Assembly: GCA_003650305.1 (NCBI GenBank)
Contig: QMOV01000003.1
Location: forward strand, 1 to 64,000
Origin: Bacteroidota bacterium
GTDB lineage: Bacteria > Bacteroidota > Bacteroidia > Flavobacteriales > Flavobacteriaceae
DNA length: 64,000 nucleotides
Direction: 5' to 3'
Positions 31,988-39,951 of the stretch are shown here, in pieces (within the stretch, counting starts at the first letter, position 1; the number at the start of each line of letters is the position of its first letter). The notes beneath the pieces are model-generated. The model had not been told where the DNA came from. It searched no databases and saw nothing but the letters and a program-made list of their open reading frames with translations. The translations under genes were made by a program, and so were the position numbers.

Positions 31988-33010
31988 TTAATCTTTTTTA
32001 ATGAGTATTTTGGATGCTTGATCTCTTCGTAATGCTATAGAAGTTCCTTTAACCAAGTAGGCTATAGGATCTTTCATAGGGCTCATCAAATCAATACAAA
32101 TCTCAGTACCTCTTACAAAACCTAAATCTAATAATCGTCTTCTGTTATCTCCTCTACTTTCTTTTGAAATCCCTAAAATATGTGCTATCTCACCATCTTT
32201 TAGGTTTGATAACCTCACTATATTTTCTTCAACTACTTCATCTTTTTCAAGAACAGCAACTGTTATATTTGCTGCAACAATTGGTGCTAATTTAAATTCT
32301 TCGCCTTCTGCATAAAAAACCACTCTTTGGTTGTTATTTTCTACCACTCTTATTTGAGAACCAATATGAATGTTCTCGGCAAGGATTTGTTTGTAAATTA
32401 CATCTGGTTCATCTTCAATATGAACTATTTTTCCAACAGTATTTACCCCCAAAGAAGATAAAAACTCTCCATGAACATCAGCCATTTTTCCAGTGTTTGT
32501 GGGAATTGGGTCTCCATGCGGATCGTATATTGGGTTCCCTAATTGTGTTGCTAACAAATTTGTTTCTTCATTACTTAATTCATGCTCTTTCGATTCTGCC
32601 ATTTCATGCCACTCCTTTTTATCATAACCTGTTTTTTCTGCCAAATACTTTTCCCAAAGCCTATGAACTCTAACAATACGCAAAGCATAATCTCTTCCAG
32701 AGTTTGTTAACTTTAAAATATCTCCATCAAATTGTATCAGCTCATTAATGGCCATTTTTTTAATAACATCAACTATAATACTGTCCTTAAACTTTAAGGC
32801 TCTTGTTAAAGCATTTACATTATCTTCTTTACCAGAATTTTCGCTGTGATATAAATGTTTTAGAACATCTTCGATAACTATTTTTTCATTCGATTTTAGA
32901 TTGTTTTTAATTAGCCAAAACCAACCCTTTCTTGGTCGGAATAACAAATACCCTAAAAATGAAATAACAAAAAATAAAAGTAAAGCGTATATAGGATTAT
33001 AAGTATTCAT
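31988..33010 (-). CDS. Membrane-anchored DtxR-like/FeoA fusion protein
   Basis: A 340-residue protein with three parts. Residues 7-24 are a single transmembrane segment, followed by a short basic linker. Residues about 42-190 are DtxR/MntR-like: a winged-helix part and a dimerisation part with HRLWEKYLAEKTGYDKKEWHE and the metal-site stretch LGNPIYDPHGDPIP. The C-terminal 75 residues are a FeoA-like SH3 domain (LSNLKDGEIAHILGI, LLDLGFVRGTEI). The anchor makes a classical free repressor unlikely; it may sense cytoplasmic metal at the membrane and control the FeoB halves directly. The start follows the previous stop after one base. Confidence 0.88.
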   Translation of the reverse strand: MNTYNPIYALLLFFVISFLGYLLFRPRKGWFWLIKNNLKSNEKIVIEDVLKHLYHSENSGKEDNVNALTRALKFKDSIIVDVIKKMAINELIQFDGDILKLTNSGRDYALRIVRVHRLWEKYLAEKTGYDKKEWHEMAESKEHELSNEETNLLATQLGNPIYDPHGDPIPTNTGKMADVHGEFLSSLGVNTVGKIVHIEDEPDVIYKQILAENIHIGSQIRVVENNNQRVVFYAEGEEFKLAPIVAANITVAVLEKDEVVEENIVRLSNLKDGEIAHILGISKESRGDNRRRLLDLGFVRGTEICIDLMSPMKDPIAYLVKGTSIALRRDQASKILIKKD

Positions 33011-33011
33011 G

Positions 33012-33668
33012 TTAATTGATTTTTACATACATATTACTTGCTATCTCTTTAGAAATAGTCAGCTCTGAATTATTTATTTTAATAGTCATAGACTCATCAA
33101 AAGCTTCTTTGGTTAAAACCTGTATAGCTGTTCCTATGGCAATACTATTTTTATCAAGATATTTAAGAAAATTATCTGAAGAATCTTTTACACCAACACA
33201 AGAACAATTAACACTTGGATTTACTTGTGATAAAAAGATTTTTTGAGATTTTTGTAAGTTACCTTCTCTATCAGGAATTGGATCTCCATGTGGATCATGA
33301 GTAGGAAGCCCTAAAAAAGCATCCAATTCATTAATTAGTTTTTGAGACTTAATATGTTCTAATTGCTCGGCAATATCGTGAACTTCATTCCAAGAAAAAT
33401 TTAGCTTTTCTACAAGGAATACTTCCCAAAGACGATGTTTACGAACAACATTCGCGGCAATAATTTTACCTTCTTTAGTTAAAGAAACGCCTTGATATTT
33501 TTTGTAGTCAACAAGTTCTTTTTCCGCTAGTTTTTTTAACATGTCTGTAACCGAAGATGCTTTAGTGGTCATCTTTTCTGCAATAGCGTTTGTGCTTACA
33601 GAAATGCTGCCTTGTTTACCGAGATGATAAATGGCTTTTAAATAATTTTCTTCAGATTGTGTAACCAA
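33012..33668 (-). CDS. DtxR/MntR-family metal-dependent transcriptional regulator
   Basis: A 218-residue repressor-type protein. The winged helix occupies residues 1-65 (SEENYLKAIYHL, ASSVTDMLKKLAEKELV), the dimerisation and metal-binding part 66-140 (HRLWEVFLVEKL, LGLPTHDPHGDPIPD), and the C-terminus is an SH3/FeoA-like domain. The start codon is TTG at 33668; it gives the usual N-terminus, and no ATG lies nearby. DtxR proteins bind DNA when loaded with Fe2+ or Mn2+. It is the first gene of a five-gene metal operon, and a palindrome at 33722-33739 is a candidate operator. Confidence 0.92.
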   Translation of the reverse strand: MVTQSEENYLKAIYHLGKQGSISVSTNAIAEKMTTKASSVTDMLKKLAEKELVDYKKYQGVSLTKEGKIIAANVVRKHRLWEVFLVEKLNFSWNEVHDIAEQLEHIKSQKLINELDAFLGLPTHDPHGDPIPDREGNLQKSQKIFLSQVNPSVNCSCVGVKDSSDNFLKYLDKNSIAIGTAIQVLTKEAFDESMTIKINNSELTISKEIASNMYVKIN

Positions 33669-36936: not shown

Positions 36937-39900
36937 TTACTTATAAAAAAATTTATCTAAAGTCACTTTTTGTTTTTGTTCGTAAAGCTTAATCACTTTT
37001 ACCTCTTTCGTTTCATTAGCTAAACCATAATTTTTATAAACAGTATATTTTAAATATGTAGGATTAAGAATGTCTTTGTTACTTAAACATTCAATATTAA
37101 TAATCCATTCGCCTGCATCAGCATCATCTATTATATATTCTTCGGTATGATAGCCATAGTTGATTTCATCTATCATGCGTTCCTTATTTTCAAAACGCGT
37201 ATGTGACCATTTGTAATATTTCTTTTGTGGATTTACAAACTGTATTTCAAATTCTGTGTTTGGATCATTCCATTCAAAAACGATTCGAAGATCATACTTA
37301 AAGTCAACAGATAAGAAGTCTGTAGGAAGGTCTCTAAACGTTACTTTGCTTCTATGAAAAGTAATTAAATGTTTTAGTTCATTACTAACCACCTGCAATA
37401 AACCATCAAAATCAAGACCTTCAATAGTGTTGCTTAACATTTTTTTATAGAGATTCATAGCTTTTTGATAACCTCCTGTTTTGCTGTAAATAAGTGCTAA
37501 ATCTCTATAAGACTGTTCATGATTTGGTCGTAATACAAGTAGCTGTTCATAGATATATTTTGCCTCTTCATATTTATTTAATTCTTCTAGTTTATATGCT
37601 AATGATTTTAAAGCTTTAGGGTTATCATTTGCAACAGAAGCGATATTAGTTAAAATTGTAAAAGCAAAATCTTCATTCCATTTCGTAAAATAATTTGAAA
37701 CATCTAAATAATATGAAATTGATAACAGACTATCTTGGTTTTGCTGTTTATAATAAATGTTTTGGGCTTCTTCGAATGTTATTGATTTTTCTAATTCTAA
37801 AATATATGGTGAATTGTTAATATTATAATTTAATAACTGAATATCATTTTCAGTATAATCATTCCCTTTAATTAATGCAGTATCTATAATGTTTTGATCT
37901 TGATTACCACTTGTATATTTCGTTAAAATTTTAATAACTCCACCTCTTCCTTGAGTTCCATATTTATTAGTAGCAGCTAACGACTTTAAAATAGTAATAC
38001 TCTCAATTTCTTGTGGATCTACAAATGGTGGGTTTTCAGTATAAATTGATCCATCAATATCTAATATAGCTAAAGCTGGATTGTTAATAGAACCTCCACC
38101 TCTAATAACGAATTTAGGATTGTTAGGATCCAAACCTGTTACTTGAACTCCAGCAAACTGTCCTCTAATAACATCTGCCAAAGTATGATGATTTTGTTTA
38201 ATATCTTTTGATGTAATAGTATTTAAAGAGTAGCCTATTCCATCCTTATCCCTTTTACCAAATCCTCCTTCAATATCTTCATCTTTTTTACTTTCTCCAG
38301 TAAGCACAACCTCATCAAGTAATTCTCCATCACTTTTTAGTAAAATATAAATATCTTCAGGGTTTGTAACCAAAACTTCTTTTTCAATCATACCAAGATA
38401 ATTAACAATCAAAATGTCATCTTCTTTAGCTTTAATACTAAAGTATCCTTCTGAATCTGATTGTGATTCAACAAAGGTGTTTTTTAATCTTATAGTAGCT
38501 CCTTGAATTGGCCCAGCAGCATGAAAAATTTTTCCTTGTAGTAAGTTTATTTGTTTTAATTCTTTATCATTAATATCGTTATATGTTTCTATATCATAAA
38601 CTTCATTTATAATAAAATCTAATGCAAGTTTTGAACTTACTTTATTTAAATTAATATAATGTCCATCTGCGTAGAACGCTGTTTTTTGAAGTAAGTAATG
38701 ATTAGCTTTCTCTAAAGAATTAATACAAAATGTTGGAACGTTGATACCTGGTTCTAGTGGTGAAAAATTAGATATCCCATTTGTGAAAAGCATAACCACA
38801 TCTGCATTGAAGGTATTTGATTTCAAAATGTTTTTATAATCGGTAGCACCATCATAAAAACTGTTTTTTAAATATTCTATTAATTCTTTTGACTTCCCAT
38901 TTAAAACATTAAACAATTTTGCTTGTTTATTAATATTGCTAAACTTAATTACTTCAATATCTACTTTTTTTAAAACTTTTAAATAACCAGATAGCAATTC
39001 AAACTCTTTTTCAGACACTCTGTTTTTCATTTGTTTTGAAACATCGTAGAAAAGTGTTATTTTTTTTGGTTTTTCTCTTTCAATTATAACTTCTCTGTCT
39101 TTTTCTACAGGGAAGGACGTTAAAACACTAAAATTCATCCCAACATTAGCAAACCGTTTCCATTTAGCTTGACTTATAAGTCTTAAAAATGATGTTCCTC
39201 TGTTATTTGAAGCTGAAACTGCAAAATTTACATTTTCTCCGTAAACTTCAACAAGTTCTATTCCAAAAACTACATCATCATTAACCATTATATTATATGG
39301 TCTTAAGTCTATAGCTTCCTCTCCTTCTTTTCTTGTTATTATATGAAAAATATTAGTTTTTAATATATTCTTTTTGGGATAGCTTTTTTTATAATCGTAA
39401 ACATTTACACGGATTTTAATACTGTCAGAAGTATTTTCAATTATATTAAATTTTATATCTAAAAGTTTAGTTTTTTTATTCTTAATTTTAATTTTAGTAG
39501 TAATTTCTCCTCCAAGTGCTTCTTTATCTTTCCAATAACCCATTACAGAAGAAGAAACGCTTGTATTCCCCAATCTAATTTGGCTTCGTTTTTCATTTGA
39601 AATTAAAACCTCATCAAGTAACTCAAGTGATGGTTCTAAATAAAATTTATTAGTGTTGGTAAGAAATTTAACCAGTTGTGAAGCTCTTACTTTAAGTGTT
39701 TTGTATCCTAAAGCGGAAAACTGCAAAAACTCTTTCCCTCCTACAATGTCTTCATGGTATGTTAATTTAAATTTTTCCGTCTCGTCGCTAACAGTTCCAA
39801 TACTTTTCTCAATAAATCCAATATTTACATAAGGAATAGGTTGATTTGTTACTTTGTCTAACACAAAAGCTTCTATAGTAACTTCGTATTGTGCAAAAAG

Positions 39901-39951
39901 TGAGGTTGAATAAAAAAGAGTCGCAATAAATAATACAAGTGTAGTTTTCAT
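36937..39951 (-). CDS. Chimeric periplasmic protein: CarboxypepD_reg, VWA, TonB plug, TPR, DUF2135-like
   Basis: A 1004-residue protein with signal peptide (cleavage after LFAQ, 21). Order of parts: a carboxypeptidase-regulatory-like beta domain (24-110, ending LLDEVLISNE); a beta-rich domain (130-285); a VWA-like domain with an altered MIDAS motif DVSKQ (297-450); a second regulatory-like domain (472-545, ending LLDEVVLTGE); a TonB-dependent receptor plug (575-680: HTLADVIRGQFAGVQV, RGGGSINN, GRGGVIKIL); TPR repeats (780-845); and a C-terminal DUF2135/YfaP-like domain (885-985). The plug is not followed by a beta-barrel, so it cannot be a normal SusC-type receptor. No lipobox or type IX tail is evident. 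Function unknown. Confidence 0.85.
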   Translation of the reverse strand: MKTTLVLFIATLFYSTSLFAQYEVTIEAFVLDKVTNQPIPYVNIGFIEKSIGTVSDETEKFKLTYHEDIVGGKEFLQFSALGYKTLKVRASQLVKFLTNTNKFYLEPSLELLDEVLISNEKRSQIRLGNTSVSSSVMGYWKDKEALGGEITTKIKIKNKKTKLLDIKFNIIENTSDSIKIRVNVYDYKKSYPKKNILKTNIFHIITRKEGEEAIDLRPYNIMVNDDVVFGIELVEVYGENVNFAVSASNNRGTSFLRLISQAKWKRFANVGMNFSVLTSFPVEKDREVIIEREKPKKITLFYDVSKQMKNRVSEKEFELLSGYLKVLKKVDIEVIKFSNINKQAKLFNVLNGKSKELIEYLKNSFYDGATDYKNILKSNTFNADVVMLFTNGISNFSPLEPGINVPTFCINSLEKANHYLLQKTAFYADGHYINLNKVSSKLALDFIINEVYDIETYNDINDKELKQINLLQGKIFHAAGPIQGATIRLKNTFVESQSDSEGYFSIKAKEDDILIVNYLGMIEKEVLVTNPEDIYILLKSDGELLDEVVLTGESKKDEDIEGGFGKRDKDGIGYSLNTITSKDIKQNHHTLADVIRGQFAGVQVTGLDPNNPKFVIRGGGSINNPALAILDIDGSIYTENPPFVDPQEIESITILKSLAATNKYGTQGRGGVIKILTKYTSGNQDQNIIDTALIKGNDYTENDIQLLNYNINNSPYILELEKSITFEEAQNIYYKQQNQDSLLSISYYLDVSNYFTKWNEDFAFTILTNIASVANDNPKALKSLAYKLEELNKYEEAKYIYEQLLVLRPNHEQSYRDLALIYSKTGGYQKAMNLYKKMLSNTIEGLDFDGLLQVVSNELKHLITFHRSKVTFRDLPTDFLSVDFKYDLRIVFEWNDPNTEFEIQFVNPQKKYYKWSHTRFENKERMIDEINYGYHTEEYIIDDADAGEWIINIECLSNKDILNPTYLKYTVYKNYGLANETKEVKVIKLYEQKQKVTLDKFFYK

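Follow-up and report, generated by a model that had tools for sequence, protein, structure and literature searches.

A TonB-receptor plug without a barrel, and its possible coupling to TonB, in a Bacteroidota family of VWA/TPR/DUF2135 proteins

What does a TonB-receptor plug domain do in a protein that has no barrel to close? This question is raised by a locus in a 64,000-nucleotide stretch of DNA from a member of the Flavobacteriaceae (GCA_003650305.1, contig QMOV01000003.1; hereafter, the whole stretch is called the window), where an initial annotation had described a plug without a barrel in a multidomain protein, and had suggested either a periplasmic scaffold that uses the plug as an interaction module or a decoy for TonB. 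To our knowledge, nearly all recognised work of the Ton system is the energising of outer-membrane transporters. Were TonB to act on soluble multidomain proteins as well, many Bacteroidota proteins now annotated as "TonB-dependent receptor plug domain-containing" would have been misread, and the finding would bear on why Bacteroidota own several TonB proteins and on how envelope work is energised.

The gene is intact, with exactly the boundaries first reported, and its product is organized as signal peptide-NTE1-beta-VWA-NTE2-Ton box-plug-TPR-DUF2135-like (Table 1). The VWA domain and the two regulatory beta (NTE) domains that had been placed before the plug are present, but their true order is NTE1-beta-VWA-NTE2, and the beta domain at residues 121-291 had gone unnamed. 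In Pfam searches, the plug at residues 572-672 scored 36.7 bits against a cut-off of 23.9 (E 6.5e-9), and CarbopepD_reg_2 matched in two stretches with 74.9 bits, the best at 472-549. The NCBIfam SusC/RagA model (TIGR04056) covered residues 473-689 only, and phmmer matches in the PDB were to the NTE and plug part of SusC/RagA, leaving the barrel uncovered. Neither the window ORF nor its neighbours matched a 22-strand barrel by Pfam, NCBIfam, phmmer, or a barrel scan. VWA and DUF2135 scored below Pfam thresholds in the window protein (the PF09906 cut-off was not reached), and both calls are based on homology to relatives above threshold, with Foldseek adding to the VWA call. The VWA and the TPR-DUF2135 C-terminus are homologous to those of a VIT-VWA-TPR-DUF2135 family; no VIT domain was found at the N-terminus of the window protein by Pfam or a local HMM. 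A plain signal peptide forms this N-terminus, with no SHLS motif or transmembrane helix, and no membrane anchor was found, either as a lipobox or as a transmembrane helix past the signal. Lipoprotein anchoring was ruled out because there is no lipobox; among 120 family N-termini, one had a lipobox-like motif, and start codons are uncertain for some family ORFs.

Table 1. Coordinates of the window protein, its domains, and features of related or neighbouring loci.
Feature	Position	Strand	Basis or remark
Whole gene, 1004 aa	36937..39951	-	intact ORF; coordinates exact
Sec signal peptide, residues 1-20 (...SLFA-Q), no lipobox	39892..39951	-	sequence
NTE1, first CarboxypepD_reg-like domain, ~22-115	39607..39888	-	Pfam two-stretch match; local HMM in relatives
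Uncharacterised beta domain, 121-291 (~170 aa)	39079..39591	-	AlphaFold2 strands; homologues
VWA domain, 292-455	38587..39078	-	homology; Foldseek to VWF A2 3zqk and CLCA1 VWA 6pyo
Degenerate MIDAS motif DVSKQ, 303-307	39031..39045	-	second site Asp to Asn at 391
NTE2, second CarboxypepD_reg-like domain, ~470-542	38326..38544	-	Pfam CarbopepD_reg_2; Foldseek to BT3090 NTE 9hfj, TM 0.88
Ton box LDEVVLTG, 545-552, in disordered linker	38296..38319	-	lowest-entropy window; pLDDT; Bt1763 motif match
Barrel-less SusC-type plug, 572-677	37921..38238	-	Pfam, AlphaFold2, Foldseek to SusC/RagA plugs
TPR region, 705-860	37372..37839	-	Pfam TPR_2; AlphaFold2 helices
DUF2135-like beta domain, 861-1004	36940..37371	-	alignment with relatives matching PF09906
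Proteins with three to four tandem units	L082:6914-10858; L089:4141-8079; L095:817-5466; L097:3-4265		
NTE-plug-YfbK fusions (vWF_A/VWA/YfbK_C)	L114:77-2227; L121:1175-3340; L129:1413-3512		strong Pfam scores, every part
VIT-VWA-TPR-DUF2135 protein with TonB C-terminal domain in the cassette slot	L136:1501-3921	-	PF03544, 27.6 bits for the linker, above cut-off
531-aa protein between two family genes (Altibacter locus)	L039:9224-10819		no Pfam match
904-aa MG2 (alpha-2-macroglobulin-like) protein	L050:7603-10317	-	adjoins barrel-less plug gene
Two adjoining DtxR/MntR-like genes	window 31988-33668	-	

The plug fold was also recovered by structure prediction, the check proposed at the outset. 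A full-protein AlphaFold2 model built from 62 aligned sequences had a mean pLDDT of 82, with residues 577-677 folded at moderate confidence and residues 543-576, the Ton-box stretch, disordered (pLDDT below 50). When the cassette was modelled by itself from 91 sequences, pLDDT was about 90 across most of the plug. In Foldseek searches, NTE2 and the VWA domain matched the structures given in Table 1, and the plug matched the SusC structures 8aa4, 8a9y, and 5fq6 together with RagA, CirA, PfeA, and ChuA. A chance plug match is ruled out by the Pfam E-value together with AlphaFold2 and Foldseek. Residues of the plug include invariant and near-invariant positions across relatives, and SusC signature residues near its end are changed in the barrel-less clade (D657S, I663R/K, R667 to L/I/V, and N670G).

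A TonB box is retained before this plug, and no other six-residue stretch of the NTE-plug cassette is as conserved. The window sequence LLDEVVLTG matches the essential DEVVVTG of Bt1763, a Ton box whose deletion or mutation abolishes SusC function (PMC7782687). Barrel-less proteins were represented by 67 sequences sharing less than 60% identity (mean pairwise 0.30). Among them, the Ton-box columns formed the lowest-entropy 6-residue window of 184 in the cassette, with 1.18 bits compared with 2.33 for the average column and about 2.2-3.5 for the flanking columns. The Ton-box L was found in 127 of 131 cassettes and the E in 115. Set against SusC receptors, for which our comparison sets were small (16 and 42), L545 was retained in 40 of 40 sampled barrel-less sequences and in 98% of SusC, and the linker between Ton box and plug was K/E-rich with a median of 14 aa in barrel-less proteins, compared with 2 aa in 15 of 16 SusC. 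Members of the barrel-less clade often lack the TG of their Ton box. The proposal that the plug serves as an interaction module fits these data; a generic scaffold is less favoured than TonB docking, because the Ton box is kept and is more conserved than the rest of the cassette.

We propose, with about an even chance of being right, that the window protein would be a soluble periplasmic member of its family, in which the NTE-Ton box-plug cassette would act as a portable TonB-docking module and make the protein a non-receptor client of the Ton system. Lying in a flexible linker, the Ton box would be free to pair with the TonB C-terminal domain as in SusC receptors; the folded plug would then be pulled or held by TonB with no barrel around it. 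The VWA, TPR, and beta domains would bind a partner, probably one anchored to the outer membrane or cell wall, and inner-membrane energy or TonB position would so be passed to a non-receptor assembly. Such a partner would be needed for force transmission, since the window protein carries no anchor itself. On the TonB side, the genome of the window encodes two TonB_C proteins (contigs C154 and C1). What we infer in this model is that TonB binds, that force is transmitted, and which partner is involved.

The window protein is a member of a Bacteroidota VWA/TPR/DUF2135 family in which the cassette is single, in tandem up to four, or slotted into VIT-VWA proteins. Some Dokdonia-type proteins (L082, L089, L090, L095, L097, and L105) have tandem arrays of three to four NTE-Ton box-plug units, all ahead of a shared TPR-DUF2135 C-terminus. 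Each listed tandem unit has a Ton-box-like motif after its NTE, even repeat 2 of L095, in which no plug was detected downstream. Inner plugs score less well: Pfam recognises the final plug alone in L095 and no plug at all in L097, and the inner ones are therefore called from local HMM scores. In the VIT-VWA-TPR-DUF2135 proteins, the variable slot is the stretch between VWA and TPR, and among 57 such linkers, 28 held both NTE and plug, 5 an NTE alone, 2 a plug alone, and 22 had neither. TonB docking is therefore not essential to the VIT-VWA backbone. Eight of these 22 linkers still had a Ton-box-like motif (shuffled sequences: mean 1.0, maximum 7). The slot of L136 is occupied by a TonB C-terminal domain, and that of L210 by a similar stretch at 19.9 bits, under the curated cut-off; L054 has a plug-like stretch at 22.0 bits, slightly under its cut-off. 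In addition, NTE-plug-YfbK fusions are encoded upstream of a VIT-VWA family gene in L114 and L121, and upstream of a 596-aa NTE-plug-TPR-DUF2135 gene in L129. Coupling to the Ton system is indicated by a disordered motif that is conserved beside a barrel-less plug and survives plug loss, and by the TonB domain in the same slot.

The cassettes differ in their origin. In a midpoint-rooted tree of 96 cassettes, those of the window type formed one group apart from SusC (support 100/99), and the VIT cassettes were dispersed among SusC receptors. A single VIT-cassette clade was rejected (delta lnL 211.5, p-AU 3.7e-6), and one VIT cassette (G016) clustered with a SusC from the same genome (98/94). 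Cassette and backbone identities disagree: L047 and L049 share 67% in the cassette and 42% in the backbone, and L046 and L121 share 45% and 67%, respectively. This disagreement is most simply explained if cassettes were replaced repeatedly by those of resident receptors, and the VIT-VWA proteins have captured cassettes several times from SusC receptors. The recurrence of the cassette across a little-described family suggests that TonB may act on non-receptor proteins, and the tandem plug arrays and the swap of plug for TonB domain make this idea directly testable. More tentatively, with slightly worse than even prospects, periplasmic VWA, VIT, and YfbK-type proteins that have repeatedly captured the cassette, in tandem up to four, could form a Bacteroidota class of non-receptor TonB clients, in which the Ton motor would pull soluble assemblies too.

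Could the NTE and plug instead be reused solely as stable interaction folds of a scaffold, with no role for TonB and with the Ton-box segment kept for packing on the NTE or plug? The replaced SusC signature residues imply an altered surface, degenerate cassettes are frequent in VIT-type proteins, and TPR and VWA are classic interaction domains. The Ton-box sequence flanks the NTE, and packing could explain its retention; the frequent loss of TG and the charged linker that separates Ton box from plug would likewise count against docking. Yet the Ton-box stretch, although predicted to be disordered, is more conserved than any folded stretch of equal length, it persists where plug or NTE is gone, and a TonB C-terminal domain sits in the same slot of L136. 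We therefore regard a scaffold of this kind as rather unlikely, at roughly one chance in four.

The genes around the window locus encode a GNAT acetyltransferase (convergent) and an enoyl-CoA hydratase (upstream), and no barrel fragment, which had been raised as a sign of a broken receptor, lies beside the gene. Orthologues occupy the same neighbourhood in Flavobacteriaceae bacterium PRS1 (66% identical over 1000 aa; L038/L057) and Altibacter sp. HG106 (36% identical; L039/L101). The same domain order in other Bacteroidota, another point raised initially, was found in 17 full-length proteins from named genomes that share NTE1-beta-VWA-NTE2-plug-TPR-DUF2135, a set collected with one peptide pattern (QSYRDLA...) and biased to the window-like branch. 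In L043 (genome G030), NTE1-beta is its own 376-aa gene near a 736-aa VWA-NTE-plug-TPR-DUF2135 gene, which gives the window protein the look of a fusion. Family genes are grouped in sets in Altibacter and Dokdonia, and a 531-aa protein is encoded between two of them at the Altibacter locus (Table 1). A role in defence was rejected, as there was no PADLOC match.

This context bears on the decoy proposal, in which the Ton box would compete with receptors for a few TonB proteins, or the plug would act in trans on a receptor barrel. Ton box and plug are kept, tandem cassettes would raise valency, and several barrel matches in the genome have no Pfam plug match on the same ORF, although the plugs there may be divergent. 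However, no TonB, ExbB, or receptor genes were seen linked to the window gene, which lies among housekeeping genes in conserved order, and a simple decoy would not require conserved TPR, DUF2135, and VWA parts; we consider this sink or regulator improbable. A broken or chimeric receptor, produced by decay or an assembly artefact, has nothing for it beyond the general expectation that plugs accompany barrels, and is rejected with near certainty given the intact and conserved gene and the matching architecture that two related genomes have at this locus.

How would a TonB-docking protein of this kind compare with known systems? With the SusC/RagA receptors (TIGR04056; Bt1763 and RagA), the window protein has in common the NTE (PF13715), a DEVVVTG-like Ton box, and a plug fold of the same family; it differs in lacking the 22-strand barrel, in its longer charged linker between Ton box and plug, in its changed signature residues, and in the TPR and DUF2135-like domains after the plug. 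The VIT-VWA-TPR-DUF2135 proteins (for example L046 of Wocania, L053, and L055) share the VWA, the TPR and DUF2135 backbone, and the position of the cassette between VWA and TPR, whereas in the window protein VIT is replaced by NTE1 and a beta domain, and the VWA metal site and DUF2135 Asp motif are degenerate. E. coli YfbK, and the vWA proteins that have been proposed as force transducers (PMC12204202), share with the window protein a VWA in a periplasmic protein, with the NTE-plug-YfbK fusions as neighbours of family genes. Unlike them, the window protein has no vWF_A, YfbK_C, or SHLS transmembrane helix and would be a client of the motor, not a part of it; no YfbK-type protein (vWF_A) was found in the window's own genome. 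PorE is likewise a periplasmic TPR protein, and its NTE-like (CP) domain has been suggested as a link to a TonB/TolA-type transducer (PMC12204202); that paper also reports that tol-pal loci are not identifiable in Bacteroidetes. PorE has TolB and OmpA-like domains and no described plug, whereas a peptidoglycan-binding domain is absent from the window protein. The family described here, having a true Ton box and plug, would form a class distinct from the PorE and vWA proposals. A narrow search of the open-access literature that combined TonB with barrel-less plug, VIT, or DUF2135 proteins found no description of them.

The altered VWA metal motif noted initially (DVSKQ) was also seen, and a second site is changed as well (Table 1). 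In the window protein, the MIDAS positions (DxSxS...T...D) read D, S, Q, T, N, and the site is not intact. It is lost in many proteins of the window architecture, and short VWA members keep D-S-S-T-D or near variants; relatives with an intact site include L059, L061, and L107. Similarly, relatives carry an Asp-rich DUF2135 motif, NDTDIDLHVxDP, that has degenerated in the window clade (window: PNTEFEIQFVNP). Judged from these residues, the VWA and DUF2135 parts probably act as metal-free binding folds.

Two further observations were made at these loci. One of the two adjoining DtxR/MntR-like genes elsewhere in the window would, as read from its sequence, encode a membrane helix at the N-terminus and what looks like a FeoA-like part at the C-terminus. 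In L050, the C-terminal part of the MG2 protein, which has no Pfam plug match, resembles a divergent Ton box and plug (EVIVEG...VVIDGIPV...GSVIAIFT).
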